Shown in pieces: positions 17,127 to 21,384 of a stretch of DNA of 43,120 nucleotides. The stretch is from an uncultured Alphaproteobacteria bacterium (lineage in GTDB: Bacteria > Pseudomonadota > Alphaproteobacteria > HIMB59 > GCA-002718135), in contig CACBPV010000008.1 of the NCBI GenBank assembly GCA_902541215.1, positions 1 through 43,120 of the forward strand, written 5' to 3'. How positions within the stretch are numbered: position 1 is the first letter of the stretch; the number at the start of each line of letters is the position of its first letter. The notes below the pieces were generated by a model. The model saw only the letters and a list, made by a program, of their open reading frames with translations. It did no database searches and was not told the DNA's origin. The position numbers were made by a program, and so were the translations under genes.

Positions 17127-17201
17127 GCGGGCGTAGCTCAGGGGTAGAGCGCAACCTTGCCAAGGTTGAAGTCGAGGGTTCGAATCCCTTCGCCCGCTCC
17201 A
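17127..17201 (+). tRNA. tRNA-Gly (anticodon GCC), CCA encoded
   Basis: GCGGGCG TA GCTC..GAGC G CAACC TTGCCAA GGTTG ... GAGGG TTCGAAT CCCTT CGCCCGC T CCA; all stems pair. Confidence 0.97.
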
Positions 17202-17238
17202 ACAAAACTCCCAAAAACTGTAAAGTATATAAAAACAA

Positions 17239-17258
17239 GGGACACTAGCGGGACACTT
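17239..17258 (+). repeat. Arm-like direct repeat pair, cassette 1 left
   Basis: GGGACACTAGCGGGACACTT; GGGAC at 17239 and 17250, 11 bp apart. Confidence 0.8.
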
Positions 17259-17306
17259 AAAGTTAAATTTACTTAATTTTAAATTGATTAATGTTACAAT
17301 TATAAA

Positions 17307-18344
17307 ATGAAATTTTTACTTGGTTTTGTGATTATAATATTGTCACTTAGCCTTAATGCTAATGACCCAAAACTTTGTTCAATTAATGATGGAGAAAAGT
17401 ATCGAGTATCACCTTCTTGTGGTCAGTCAACTGGAGAAAAAATTGCTAATATTAGTGAGGCATATTGTATAAGTGCTCCTTTAAATTTTAGAAAAAGAAG
17501 TCCAGTACAAATAAAAGCAAATCAATTAAAAAAATATAAGGATTCATTTACAAGCAATTGGACCGATAATGAAACGTTACGGGGTTTGAATTTTGATAAT
17601 ATCAAAATGAAGTGTGATTATTTAATAACCTTAAAACAAAAAAATGATTATGTAGTTTGCTCAAACAAATCAACAAAAAATGGTAGAGAGAAATGTTTCA
17701 ACAACAATGGCCTTTATATAAATAATTTTATTTCTTTGCGTGTAGCTGAAATGCTTAACATTCAAAATAATAAATTCATTACACTTAAAGCTTCAAATAA
17801 AACTGAAAACGAAAATAAGGAAACAACTTATATTACTGAAGTAAACCAAAATAAAAAAACAATCAAAACTGATACTAATTTGAATCCAAGCTCACAAATA
17901 GTAACTCAAGTTTTAAGTAAAGATAAAATAAAAGAAGAGTTAAAATATTATAAAGAACTATTTGACGAAGAATTAATTGAAAAATCCGAATATGATGAGT
18001 TAAGAAAAGCACTTCTTGCTGGAATAAAAGAAGGATCGGTTACAAAAACAATAATAATGAATAAACCACAAGATGTTTTTATAAATTCTCAAAGTGACAT
18101 AACTAAACTCGAAGAGCAACTTAAACTGGAACAAAGAAAAGTTAAAGCAATGGAAGATCAAGCAGCTGCAACCAAAAACAACAATGCAATTATAAAAAAA
18201 CAACAAAGTAATAAAGCTTGGGGTGCAATTATGGGTTTGGGGTTAAATATGATGACTGGTAATATTGGACCGGGATCAAACCAAAGGCAAACTAATTGTT
18301 ATGGTACTGGTAGTGGCTTTAATTGCACGTCTTACGACTGGTAG
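17307..18344 (+). CDS. Secreted protein with SHOCT-like motif, unknown function (cassette 1 cargo)
   Basis: Signal peptide MKFLLGFVIIILSLSLNAN; EELKYYKELFDEELIEKSEYDELRKALLAG resembles SHOCT. Confidence 0.75.
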   Translation: MKFLLGFVIIILSLSLNANDPKLCSINDGEKYRVSPSCGQSTGEKIANISEAYCISAPLNFRKRSPVQIKANQLKKYKDSFTSNWTDNETLRGLNFDNIKMKCDYLITLKQKNDYVVCSNKSTKNGREKCFNNNGLYINNFISLRVAEMLNIQNNKFITLKASNKTENENKETTYITEVNQNKKTIKTDTNLNPSSQIVTQVLSKDKIKEELKYYKELFDEELIEKSEYDELRKALLAGIKEGSVTKTIIMNKPQDVFINSQSDITKLEEQLKLEQRKVKAMEDQAAATKNNNAIIKKQQSNKAWGAIMGLGLNMMTGNIGPGSNQRQTNCYGTGSGFNCTSYDW

Positions 18345-18359
18345 ACTTAAGTAATTTGT

Positions 18360-18417
18360 GAGTTGCCCCATTGCCGGTTTTCAAGACCGGTGCTTTCAAC
18401 CGCTCAGCCATCTCTCT
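18360..18417 (-). pseudogene. 5' fragment of tRNA-Ser(TGA)
   Basis: Reverse complement gives AGAGAGATGGCTGAGCGGTTGAAAGCACCGGTCTTGAAAACCGGCAATGGGGCAACTC then diverges; no T-arm or 3' acceptor. Confidence 0.85.
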
Positions 18418-18421
18418 TTGC

Positions 18422-18441
18422 GGGACAGTAGCGGGACACTT
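18422..18441 (+). repeat. Arm-like direct repeat pair, cassette 1 right
   Basis: GGGACAGTAGCGGGACACTT; one mismatch to the left-end pair; 11-bp spacing. Confidence 0.8.
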
Positions 18442-18505
18442 GGTTTACAAAACATTAAATTATGTTATTTAAAACTTAAGAAAAGGTTAAGGTAATTCGT
18501 ACTCG

Positions 18506-18556
18506 GCAACCTTGCCAAGGTTGAAGTCGAGGGTTCGAATCCCTTCGCCCGCTCCA
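18506..18556 (+). repeat. Displaced 51-bp tRNA-Gly 3' fragment, copy 1
   Basis: Identical to 17151-17201. Confidence 0.98.
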
Positions 18557-18602
18557 TGTTTTCTCCCGAAAATTGAATCATGAAGCGTCGAAGAAATCGT
18601 TA

Positions 18603-18623
18603 AGTAGCCCTTGCGTAGCAAAT
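18603..18623 (+). repeat. Arm-like direct repeat pair, cassette 2 left
   Basis: AGTAGCCCTTGCGTAGCAAAT; GTAGC at 18604 and 18615, 11 bp apart. Confidence 0.55.
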
Positions 18624-18640
18624 AGGTTAATCTTTTATAT

Positions 18641-18901
18641 TTATTTTTGAATAAATCTTTTCATAGTATCAAAAACAACACCATGCTTTTCAGCCTCATT
18701 TTTCACTTCATCTGAACTAAGTACTTTGTCCATTACTTCTTCATCTAAAACATTAAAGCATATTGAAACGTGATTCGAATTTTCGGTATCTACAAAATCT
18801 ACAATATTATCAGCAAACTTTGAGAAAGTTTTTACTCTTTCATCATTAAAAGATAACCACTCATCAACATTTTTTACTTCATGACTAATTATTTGTAACA
18901 T
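18641..18901 (-). CDS. Small protein, possibly dimeric alpha/beta-barrel fold (cassette 2 cargo)
   Basis: Start moved from the ORF track to the internal ATG (MLQIISHEVKNVDEW...) because GGAGGT lies just upstream; fold is a guess. Confidence 0.65.
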   Translation of the reverse strand: MLQIISHEVKNVDEWLSFNDERVKTFSKFADNIVDFVDTENSNHVSICFNVLDEEVMDKVLSSDEVKNEAEKHGVVFDTMKRFIQK

Positions 18902-18991
18902 TTTACCTCCTTGATATTTATTAAAATCTATCAAATCAAATTATTATAAAAAAGTGTAATATTTAATATTATTTAGAAAAAGTATTTTTAA

Positions 18992-19015
18992 CTAGCCCCC
19001 AAGTAGTCCTGCAAA
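18992..19015 (+). repeat. Arm-like direct repeat pair, cassette 2 right
   Basis: CTAGCCCCCAAGTAGTCCTGCAAA; (C/G)TAG at 18992 and 19003, 11 bp apart; resembles the left-end pair. Confidence 0.5.
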
Positions 19016-19084
19016 TTTATATAAATTTATTTATTACAAATATTTTCTTAATATTTGGTCAATAATAAACAAGCAATATATTTG

Positions 19085-19135
19085 GCAACCTTGCCAAGGT
19101 TGAAGTCGAGGGTTCGAATCCCTTCGCCCGCTCCA
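19085..19135 (+). repeat. Displaced 51-bp tRNA-Gly 3' fragment, copy 2
   Basis: Identical to 17151-17201. Confidence 0.98.
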
Positions 19136-19180
19136 AGTAAACAGCCATTATTTTAGTTTCTTGTAACGCTGTAAAGTGAT

Positions 19181-19204
19181 CACGCGCCACTCACGCGTCA
19201 GTTT
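19181..19204 (+). repeat. Arm-like direct repeat pair, cassette 3 left
   Basis: CACGCGCCACTCACGCGTCAGTTT; CGCG at 19183 and 19194, 11 bp apart. Confidence 0.75.
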
Positions 19205-19252
19205 GTTGAAAAAATAATTTAAAATTTTATTAATTATGTTAATTTAATTAAT

Positions 19253-19867
19253 ATGTTTAATAAAAAAAACTACGCCATCATCTTATTAGCACTGTTATTT
19301 TCACTAAACTCAAGAGCTGGTTCATGGACTGATTGGAAAGAGGTTGATACTATTTCTTTTGTCCCAATTACTTTTACTGATATTAATGATGTTATAGGGA
19401 ATGGAACTTTTTATAGCTGGTATTCAGAAGGTAAATTGGATGCTGGAAAAATAGCTTATCAATACTGGACTGAAAACTATACTGAAAATGGATACTTACT
19501 AATAAACTTAGTTAAAATGCCTCCAAGTTTTGTAATTACGGGCAGTGGAAACGATAAAAAGTATATAAGAGATCAAGCTGAATTTATTTTAAACGTTGAA
19601 AGAAAAAATAATCCTCTAAAAGGTATTAGTAAAAAAGATATTGAAAGATACAGAGATGTTTACAATAATGTAGTACCATATGTATTTTTTGATTATGACA
19701 ATTCAGTATGTATTATAATTAAAAAAGGATATTACAGAGGTACGTCTGGATATGAAGAAGATGCTCGAGATGTTGAAACCCTTGTTGCTGTATTTTGCAA
19801 GCAAAACGGCACAATAGATCAAGCCTTTGCTCAGAGGTTAATTAATTCGATTGAAATAAAAAAATAA
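19253..19867 (+). CDS. Secreted protein of unknown function (cassette 3 cargo)
   Basis: 204-aa ORF with signal peptide MFNKKNYAIILLALLFSLNSRAG. Confidence 0.75.
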   Translation: MFNKKNYAIILLALLFSLNSRAGSWTDWKEVDTISFVPITFTDINDVIGNGTFYSWYSEGKLDAGKIAYQYWTENYTENGYLLINLVKMPPSFVITGSGNDKKYIRDQAEFILNVERKNNPLKGISKKDIERYRDVYNNVVPYVFFDYDNSVCIIIKKGYYRGTSGYEEDARDVETLVAVFCKQNGTIDQAFAQRLINSIEIKK

Positions 19868-19923
19868 ATAATTTCAATAATATATTTTTGATATTACTAA
19901 ACTATTATTTATTTTCTTATGAA

Positions 19924-19947
19924 TGCGCGTCAGCTACGCGTCAGTTG
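19924..19947 (+). repeat. Arm-like direct repeat pair, cassette 3 right
   Basis: TGCGCGTCAGCTACGCGTCAGTTG; CGCG at 19926 and 19937, 11 bp apart; shares ACGCGTCAGTT with the left end. Confidence 0.75.
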
Positions 19948-20013
19948 ATGTTTATTTTTTTCGTAAAAAATGATAATGTTTCATTAAGAAAAGGTGCTTC
20001 TCCATGGTAACGG

Positions 20014-20064
20014 GCAACCTTGCCAAGGTTGAAGTCGAGGGTTCGAATCCCTTCGCCCGCTCCA
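20014..20064 (+). repeat. Displaced 51-bp tRNA-Gly 3' fragment, copy 3
   Basis: Identical to 17151-17201. Confidence 0.98.
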
Positions 20065-20111
20065 ATAAATCTCCCAAAAAAATAATTTTTTTTCTTTTTT
20101 AGTCTTTTTAC

Positions 20112-20132
20112 GTCCCACATATGTCCCACTTA
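20112..20132 (+). repeat. Arm-like direct repeat pair, cassette 4 left
   Basis: GTCCCACATATGTCCCACTTA; GTCCCA at 20112 and 20123, 11 bp apart. Confidence 0.8.
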
Positions 20133-20319
20133 GAACGCTTTGGGGCAAGTTGGGGACACTTTATATATAAAATGACACAACGCATTAATTTTATAAAAAA
20201 ATTATACCTAATTTTGTTACCAGATATAAACTTTTAAAAATACTAATTAAATTTATTAAAAAAAATAAATATTTAAATTTGTAATATTAAATTAAAATTA
20301 TTTTTCTAAAAATTTTTTA

Positions 20320-21147
20320 GTGTTTAAAAATATTTTTTTGGCTTCATATCCTAAATCTGGAAATACTTGGCTTAGATCAATAATTCTTTCCTCACTACAA
20401 CAAAACAATATTATCAATATAAAAGATTTATCAAAAATAAGATTGTTATCAGATAAAATGAACTTCATTTCATTTAAAAATAAGATTTATGATAAAAAAG
20501 GATTGATAGATTATGATTGGATGTCAAAAAACCTTATTTTATGTCAGAAAAAACTTAATGAAAAAACTAAATATAATTTTTTTTTTAAAACTCATAGTGT
20601 GAGGCACAAAAGTTTTACAAATAAAACTGTAAATGCAGGTTTTATTTATATTGTCCGAGATCCTAGAGATATAGTTGTATCATTAAGTAATTTTACAGGA
20701 ATAAATTTGGATGAAGCTATAAATCAAATTGTTTTTAATAAACAACTAATGACGAATGCAAATGGCGCTAGAGAATTGGTTTCCAATTGGGATTTAAATA
20801 TAAAATCTTGGTTAGAATACAAAAGTGTCCCAAGTTTATTTATTAGATATGAAGATCTATTATTTAAATCAAATAACACAATATTAAAAATTATTACTTT
20901 TATAAATATAATTACGAATAAAAATATTTTAAATAATAAAAAAAATATTGATGAAATTGCAAAAAATACCAGCTTTAAAACATTACAATTTCAAGAAGCC
21001 TTAAATGGTTTTGATGAAGCATCTAAGCATTCAAAATTTTTTAGATCAGGTACATCTAATCAATGGAAAGATATATTATCTAATTCACAAGCTAAGCTTA
21101 TTGAGAAAAACTTAAAATCAATGATGAGATATTTTAATTATATTTAG
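20320..21147 (+). CDS. Sulfotransferase-domain protein (cassette 4 cargo; GTG start)
   Basis: PAPS-binding FLASYPKSGNTWLRSI and FIYIVRDPRDIVVSLSNF motifs. Confidence 0.9.
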   Translation: MFKNIFLASYPKSGNTWLRSIILSSLQQNNIINIKDLSKIRLLSDKMNFISFKNKIYDKKGLIDYDWMSKNLILCQKKLNEKTKYNFFFKTHSVRHKSFTNKTVNAGFIYIVRDPRDIVVSLSNFTGINLDEAINQIVFNKQLMTNANGARELVSNWDLNIKSWLEYKSVPSLFIRYEDLLFKSNNTILKIITFINIITNKNILNNKKNIDEIAKNTSFKTLQFQEALNGFDEASKHSKFFRSGTSNQWKDILSNSQAKLIEKNLKSMMRYFNYI

Positions 21148-21154
21148 AAGATAA

Positions 21155-21244
21155 TGGCGGAGAGAGTGAGATTCGAACTCACGAACGAGTTGCCCCGTTG
21201 CCGGTTTTCAAGACCGGTGCTTTCAACCGCTCAGCCATCTCATT
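21155..21244 (-). tRNA. tRNA-Ser (anticodon TGA), probably defective at its 5' end
   Basis: Complete D, anticodon, variable and T arms plus CCA, but 5' acceptor strand AATGAGA pairs with only 4 of 7 positions of TCTCTCC. Confidence 0.6.
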
Positions 21245-21249
21245 TTCGT

Positions 21250-21270
21250 GTCCCACTTACGTCCCACTTT
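21250..21270 (+). repeat. Arm-like direct repeat pair, cassette 4 right
   Basis: GTCCCACTTACGTCCCACTTT; GTCCCACTT at 21250 and 21261, 11 bp apart; same family as the left end. Confidence 0.8.
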
Positions 21271-21333
21271 ATTTAAAATTTCTAAGCTGCGATAGAATAT
21301 TTATTAAGAAAATCAATAACTCAATCGTACTTG

Positions 21334-21384
21334 GCAACCTTGCCAAGGTTGAAGTCGAGGGTTCGAATCCCTTCGCCCGCTCCA
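21334..21384 (+). repeat. Displaced 51-bp tRNA-Gly 3' fragment, copy 4
   Basis: Identical to 17151-17201. Confidence 0.98.

Follow-up and report, generated by a model that had tools for sequence, protein, structure and literature searches.

Streamlined ocean bacteria have few recognized mobile elements, yet their genes are exchanged. Additive islands that are targeted to tRNA genes and contain repeated tRNA fragments have been described in Alteromonas, Actinomarinales, and Methylopumilus (PMC4119200, PMC7771536, PMC10872708); in “Candidatus Methylopumilus,” which is covered in this set of papers, the last 20 nt of tRNA-Lys are repeated and the copy number varies. The accessible parts of these accounts describe such islands without a mechanism, and the accessible part of the report on the HIMB59 phosphate island attributes that island to homologous recombination without tRNAs (PMC10734472). 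A testable mechanism is offered here by an array of four short cassettes, c1 to c4, located at a tRNA-Gly gene in a 43,120-nt stretch of DNA (contig CACBPV010000008.1 of assembly GCA_902541215.1, hereafter the window) from an uncultured alphaproteobacterium of the order HIMB59, also known as AEGEAN-169 or SAR11 clade V (PMC8692485). With a probability of roughly 0.8, these cassettes represent minimal non-autonomous integrative elements that are moved by an arm-binding tyrosine integrase supplied in trans and become stacked at tRNA-Gly.

Attachment cores and arm-type repeats

The 51-mer GCAACCTTGCCAAGGTTGAAGTCGAGGGTTCGAATCCCTTCGCCCGCTCCA is found at positions 17151, 18506, 19085, 20014, and 21334 of the window, always on the forward strand and with no mismatches, and the spacings between its copies (1355, 579, 929, and 1320 bp) define the four cassettes. 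It corresponds to the 3'-terminal 51 nt of tRNA-Gly(GCC), which is complete, according to ARAGORN, only at the first copy. The length of these 51-nt repeats excludes a chance origin. An earlier note on this DNA, made from the sequence alone, had listed the same core positions, orientation, and intervals, all of which were recovered in the exact-repeat search; it had also assigned to each interval a single main cargo open reading frame (ORF; orientations +, -, +, and +) and no recombinase, in agreement with the profile scans, which detected no recombinase among the four main ORFs (345, 97, 204, and 275 aa). No conjugation gene was found in the four cassettes either. In the genome to which the window belongs (G000; 1.32 Mb in 65 contigs, 74% complete), there is no further copy of the core at up to 3 mismatches in 37 nt. 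Downstream of position 21384, up to 26200, no decayed core scored above shuffled sequences, so the right border of the array was set at 21384. The comparison set consisted of 102 genomes of the genus AG-337-I02 (order HIMB59), one per species; other G numbers below denote the genomes of these and other relatives, and L numbers denote extracted loci. The same arrangement is seen in dozens of genomes of the genus that were assembled independently, many from single cells.

In each of the four cassettes, two direct repeats with 11-bp spacing lie near either end. These pairs are private to the cassette family, and their distance from the cores is nearly constant. Arm pairs beside a tRNA core are a hallmark of the attachment sites of phages and integrative and conjugative elements (ICEs), which are used by lambda-type integrases, and the paired repeats of the cassettes can be predicted to represent such arm-type sites. 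Of the 82 cassettes of the genus, 53 have matching heptamer pairs, spaced by 11 bp, at their two ends (joint score of at least 34), as opposed to 0 of the 360 internal windows and 12% of the combinations of mismatched ends, some of them joining ends of the same family. Downstream of tRNA-Gly, 54 of 72 loci have a heptamer pair with at least 6 of 7 matching positions at spacing 11, and only 1 to 4 loci have one at each other spacing from 8 to 15; for perfect 7/7 pairs, the counts are 36 of 72 at spacing 11 and 0 or 1 at the other spacings. Across the genus, the arm patterns of c1 and c4 are confined to the tRNA-Gly arrays, except for a few relatives at other tRNAs; control searches with the reversed patterns gave no matches. 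Judging by their sequences, the cassettes of the genus thus combine a tRNA core with paired direct repeats at a fixed distance from it, as putative arm-type sites should. The pattern extends to tRNA-Leu and to a second family of the order; because tRNA-Leu shows it, the idea that tRNA-Gly is the sole site of this kind was rejected.

The distance from the right arm pair to the core is mostly ∼66 or ∼76 nt where the core is 51 nt or slightly longer, ∼56 nt in the family with TGTGACA arms, and 21 to 25 nt where the core is ∼31 nt, so that the arm-to-crossover geometry looks quantized. This suggests two crossover sublocations in the tRNA, one in the anticodon arm and one in the T arm, with a fixed arm geometry. 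Many cassettes, among them ones with differing arms, have in common the motifs TTAAGAAAAGG and TTTAGGAAAAGGC, approximately 30 nt before the right core, and CTCCCAAA, at +6 to +13 after the left core, which are possible binding sites for integration host factor (IHF), an excision factor, or another accessory protein.

Some related loci depart from this layout. The arm pair CGTACCACCTACGTACCACTT is located 138 nt upstream of a complete tRNA-Ser(GCT) in L328, L335, L336, and L337 (from G044, G021, G022, and G084, respectively) and also occurs in G003:C7, in an element with an integrase at a split tRNA-Ser. The right ends of L042, L054, L073, L096, and L351 contain an almost complete extra tRNA-Gly and no 51-nt core, in a tycheposon-like manner.

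Integrase-bearing relatives and exchange of cassettes

Integrases of the PF00589 family are encoded between the cores of eight arrays, with a ninth case in G156. In six elements of 5 to 14 kb, the integrase gene is found at the right end, reads left, and is adjacent to TGTGACA arms, whereas in G074 (CCGACA arms), G003 (GGTCACA), and G156 (CGTCTCC) it starts directly after the left arms. Related integrases are encoded at tRNA-Leu, -Arg, -Ser, -Gln, and -Val, and most are adjacent to 11-bp-spaced arms of their own.

For three arm types, TGTGACA, CCGACA, and GTTGCCC, elements that lack an integrase share their ends, mainly the left one, with elements that encode it. At tRNA-Gly, the left ends of such partners are 81 to 93% identical over 90 nt and 53 to 68% identical beyond them in the TGTGACA group, and 90 to 92% identical over 48 nt in two of three cases in the CCGACA group. 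At tRNA-Leu, the integrase-bearing element of G002 and the integrase-less one of G030, both with GTTGCCC arms, match at 57 of 57 nt through the arm pair, beyond which the identity drops to the background level of ∼60%. In nine elements, only the integrase residues from 1 to 45-119 are left after the arms; this N-terminal stretch shows a weak match, below the curated cutoff, to the Pfam domain Arm-DNA-bind_4. These nine remnants, along with the ends shared with integrase-bearing elements, suggest that loss of the integrase, with the ends kept in place, is at least one route by which non-autonomous elements come about. In G031_c2, G075_c1, G077_c1, and G087_c1, the leftover start of the integrase forms an open frame of 82 to 130 aa, whose product could serve as an arm-binding repressor or competitor.

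The earlier note proposed mobilization in trans, which is supported at the level of the genus by same-end elements with and without an integrase at the same tRNAs and is extended to c1 to c4 by analogy. Its suggestion to look for a trans-encoded tyrosine recombinase in the same genome led only to a 352-aa protein (G000:C16:14027; L264:1087-2145), the sole PF00589 member found in the 74% complete G000. This protein is Xer/XerA-like, has no match to an arm-binding domain and no IntI model among its matches, and is unlinked to the array. Most genomes of the genus have about one copy of this protein, which is encoded beside a Sir2-like gene and may be the single Xer of this lineage. In IMG/VR, the arm motifs of c3 and c4 gave no matches and relatives of the c4 sulfotransferase were not found; the closest relative of the array-type integrase was only 29% identical. 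Three matches to the c1 arm motif, on GC-rich contigs with neither a tRNA nor a related integrase, were judged to be due to chance, and a single contig matching a 37-mer of the core, with dense overlapping ORFs, was judged unrelated.

Cassette content varies among 74 tRNA-Gly loci, which contain 1, 2, 3, 4, or 5 cores in 24, 29, 17, 3, and 1 cases, respectively, with a median segment of 1286 bp. Individual cassettes are far more similar between species than their surroundings. Thus, c1, which stands alone in G047, differs there at 3 of its first 1240 nt, as compared to 87% identity in the flank upstream of the tRNA; c4 is 98% identical in G039, G057, and G062, with flanks at ∼88%; and pairs of other species share cassettes of the c2 and c4 families at up to 99.4 to 99.6% identity with flanks at 84 to 85%. 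The order changes as well: [c2][c4] in G039 and G062, [c4'][c2] in G033 and G090, [c4'][c3] in G078, and [4.6 kb][c2][c4'] in G087. In c1, G022, G035, G086, and G064, one and the same right end (93 to 99% identity over 111 to 149 nt) is attached to different cargo. Insertions at the same site, repeated tRNA ends, and strain-variable content are likewise the traits of additive flexible genomic islands. The identical arrangement in all related strains that the earlier note regarded as fatal to its view was not encountered, as related genomes have 1 to 5 cores, presence or absence of cassettes, new partners, and swapped order; its view of the locus as non-autonomous single-gene elements that are stacked at a tRNA attB site is supported.

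Perfect cores make up 96% of the first, 74% of the second, and 61% of the third copies, which is a mere hint of tRNA-proximal insertion, given that tRNA function confounds the comparison at the first copy. A left arm without a right core is often retained at loci that have a single core. In c1, a stretch of ∼20 nt between TTAAGAAAAGG and the core (18486-18505) has been exchanged relative to G047 independently of the otherwise 99.8% identical cassette; these ∼20-nt stubs look like decayed 5' halves of tRNA-Gly.

Proposed mechanism and its alternatives

The circular form of a cassette would consist of the right arm pair, the core, the left arm pair, and one cargo gene. An integrase provided in trans by an autonomous element of the same or a previous cell would pair the core of the circle with the 3' end of tRNA-Gly and recombine the two, probably within the anticodon loop, since the 51-nt core starts at the anticodon stem. 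Insertion would restore the tRNA and displace its old 3' end to the distal border of the insert, and repeated events would in this way stack the cassettes. With a common core and private arms, each cassette family would respond to a particular type of integrase, and the cassettes themselves would descend, at least partly, from autonomous elements that lost the integrase and kept the ends. We infer excision, a trans-acting integrase for c1 to c4, the crossover position, and a transfer vehicle; mobilization of these four cassettes in trans is proposed by analogy with the TGTGACA, CCGACA, and GTTGCCC pairs because no integrase with matching arms has been found in the genomes and IMG/VR sequences searched. 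A broader view, offered tentatively and at somewhat less than even odds, is that of a genus-wide pool of single-gene cassettes with one landing site and private arm labels, each read by a different trans-acting integrase, which would play an integron-like role with neither a dedicated integrase nor attC sites.

Several observations weigh against mobilization by integrases in trans. No integrase with the arms of c1 to c4 was found in G000 or in the 102 genomes of the genus, none with c4 arms in 162 genomes of the order, and none with c1, c3, or c4 arms in IMG/VR. The right ends of integrase-bearing and integrase-less partners are far less alike than the left ones (only 73% in the G002-G030 pair). 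Segments shorter than 1.5 kb account for only 51 of 82, and some of the longer ones hide decayed internal cores. The nominal binomial probabilities for the excess of spacing 11 (<1e-38) overstate independence, as the loci share ancestry. Finally, identical 51-bp cores could also allow cassettes to be shuffled by homologous recombination. This is the main rival, according to which the cassettes were once mobilized by integrases but are now exchanged by RecA-dependent recombination at the cores and flanks, for example, after natural transformation, so that the arms are relics. It would account for the perfect, uniformly oriented cores, for the lack of a c1-c4 helper in the genome, and for the separate swap of ∼20 nt beside the right core of c1 between G000 and G047, as expected from gene conversion near a core. 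However, paired arms stay matched at both ends in many families despite changes of cargo, those of c1 and c4 are intact, and integrase-bearing elements with the same arms as integrase-less ones coexist in the genus, which makes this alternative unlikely.

Integrase-mediated mobility in trans also fares better than the idea that ordinary islands or prophages were serially stacked and are decaying into the present cassettes, with the integrase lost in place and no mobility as small units. Derivatives with integrase stubs do exist, distal cores are more often imperfect, and single-core loci often have a left arm and no right core, but small two-ended cassettes recur in other species, with other partners and in other orders, at 95 to 99.8% identity versus 84 to 88% in the flanks. 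Since decay in place cannot produce sharing of single cassettes across species, this version is largely refuted and very improbable. A true integron-like system, in which the conserved 352-aa protein would be the one dedicated chromosomal recombinase acting on tRNA-derived sites, appears still less probable: its presence in one copy, unlinked to the array, in most genomes of the genus including G000 would fit that role, but it is merely Xer/XerA-like and lacks a match to an arm-binding domain, the integrases found beside matching arms belong to a different family, and private arms as diverse as these would require several arm-binding integrases. False joins at the 51-bp repeat could be suspected, as the genome is incomplete and the window is one of its contigs, but such an artifact is hardly credible: the flanks of each core differ, arrays are found in dozens of separate assemblies, many from single cells, and the cassette borders can be predicted from the arms without recourse to the cores.

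The borders, the arm sites, and the candidate helper integrases can all be read from sequence, and the exchange of cargo can be scored across public single-cell genomes. A recognition code of integrases and arms could be derived, and a tRNA 3' end combined with an 11-bp-spaced repeat pair at both ends provides a simple rule for finding such cassettes elsewhere.

Cargo and comparison with known systems

The features of the array are listed below. The c3 cargo had a weak PADLOC match only. The tRNA-Ser(TGA) sequences, whole in c4 and represented by a 5' fragment in c1, both directly adjoin the right arms; the apparent chromosomal tRNA-Ser(TGA) of G000, at C37, shows two mismatches, and related cassettes of other species hold the same fragment. 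Neither these tRNA-Ser sequences nor the paired 11-bp-spaced end repeats were mentioned in the earlier note.

Features of the tRNA-Gly cassette array in the window
Feature	Position	Strand	Basis
tRNA-Gly(GCC), functional gene; nt 17151-17201 are the attachment core	17127..17201	+	ARAGORN, exact repeats
Cassette c1, 1355 bp, including right core 18506-18556	17202..18556	+	exact repeat; 99.3% identical cassette alone in G047
c1 left arm pair GGGACACTAGCGGGACACTT, 11-bp spacing	17239..17258	+	repeat search, genus-wide pattern
c1 cargo, 345 aa, hydrophobic N terminus (by eye), no family	17307..18344	+	ORF list, profile scans
Truncated tRNA-Ser(TGA), 5' ∼58 nt, adjoins c1 right arms	18360..18419	-	95% identical to 21187-21246
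c1 right arm pair GGGACAGTAGCGGGACACTT	18422..18441	+	repeat search, genus-wide pattern
Attachment core copy 2	18506..18556	+	exact repeat
Cassette c2, 579 bp, including core 19085-19135	18557..19135	+	exact repeat; 12 family members in genus
c2 left arm pair AAGTAGCCCTTGCGTAGCAAAT; left repeat also written AAGTAGCCCTTGCGTAGC	18602..18623	+	repeat search
c2 cargo, up to 97 aa, no family	18641..18934	-	ORF list, profile scans
c2 right arm pair TAGCCCCCAAGTAGTCC, slightly degenerate	18993..19009	+	repeat search
Attachment core copy 3	19085..19135	+	exact repeat
Cassette c3, 929 bp, including core 20014-20064	19136..20064	+	exact repeat; 94.5% identical cassette in G078
c3 left arm pair CGCGCCACTCACGCGTCAGTT	19183..19203	+	repeat search
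c3 cargo, 204 aa, hydrophobic N terminus (by eye), no family	19253..19867	+	ORF list, profile scans
c3 right arm pair CGCGTCAGCTACGCGTCAGTT	19926..19946	+	repeat search
Attachment core copy 4	20014..20064	+	exact repeat
Cassette c4, 1320 bp, including core 21334-21384	20065..21384	+	exact repeat; 98% identical in G039, G057, G062
c4 left arm pair CGTCCCACATATGTCCCACTT	20111..20131	+	repeat search, genus-wide pattern
c4 cargo, 275-aa sulfotransferase (PF00685, E=2.7e-25)	20320..21147	+	profile scan
Complete tRNA-Ser(TGA) inside c4	21155..21244	-	ARAGORN
c4 right arm pair TGTCCCACTTACGTCCCACTT	21249..21269	+	repeat search, genus-wide pattern
Attachment core copy 5, right border of the array	21334..21384	+	exact repeat

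Genus-wide, the short cassettes encode 39 protein clusters (scanned in part), many of them small proteins without an evident family. The cargo that could be named includes sulfotransferase, alternative oxidase, a flavodoxin-fold reductase, ABM, a 2OG-Fe(II) oxygenase, a major facilitator superfamily (MFS) protein, HNH, a LexA-type DNA-binding domain, a hexapeptide transferase, and DUF805. Longer elements carry, as judged by eye, apparent restriction-modification and polymerase-like genes.

Among the known systems, cis-mobilizable elements (CIMEs) are bounded by att sites and, having no recombinase, rely on that of a related element; they are decayed conjugative elements that are mobilized in cis after accretion, and tandem accretion is also known for ICEs and integrative and mobilizable elements (IMEs). 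The cassettes described here similarly have att-type ends and no recombinase, but they are only 0.5 to 1.5 kb long, usually carry one gene, and recur as discrete units. The neighboring integrase at the same site that is typical of CIMEs is absent from the G000 array but present in other arrays. Tycheposons, as reportedly described by Hackl and colleagues in 2023 (cited in PMC10872708), are elements of 4 to 200 kb from streamlined marine bacteria with a tRNA boundary, a tyrosine recombinase, and cargo. The kinship with tycheposons that the earlier note suggested does not hold for the cassettes of the window, which are 0.6 to 1.4 kb long and have no recombinase; it is plausible only for the larger elements with TGTGACA arms, which combine a tRNA border with an integrase and polymerase-like genes.

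The array resembles integrons in having mostly single-gene cassettes with mostly unknown cargo behind one fixed site and in the logic of tyrosine recombination. In contrast to integrons, however, its site is a tRNA 3' end, apparently not attI or attC, the orientation of the cargo is mixed, and the candidate recombinases are of the arm-binding phage type. The attC sites of integrons are folded imperfect hairpins with R' and R'' boxes, whereas the borders here are, by their anatomy, exact tRNA-Gly 3' ends accompanied by arm pairs. IntI was not found in the 74% complete G000, whose sole PF00589 protein is the Xer/XerA-like one. Since no IntI was found and the borders are tRNA ends, the array is judged, from its sequence, not to be an integron, so that the integron likeness drawn by the earlier note is retained as a functional analogy and dropped as a matter of membership.

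The array also resembles the additive flexible genomic islands, which, like the cassettes here, vary in number and content (PMC4119200, PMC7771536, PMC10872708). As far as the accessible parts of those papers go, such islands are described without arm sites, pairing of same-ended elements that have and lack an integrase, or single-gene cassettes shuffled across species, all of which appear here; likewise, the accessible portion of the open-license literature on tRNA islands and trans-acting integrases describes no arm sites or helper-cassette pairs. Additive islands with tRNA repeats are thus already known, whereas the arm sites and the format of single-gene cassettes mobilized in trans look new.

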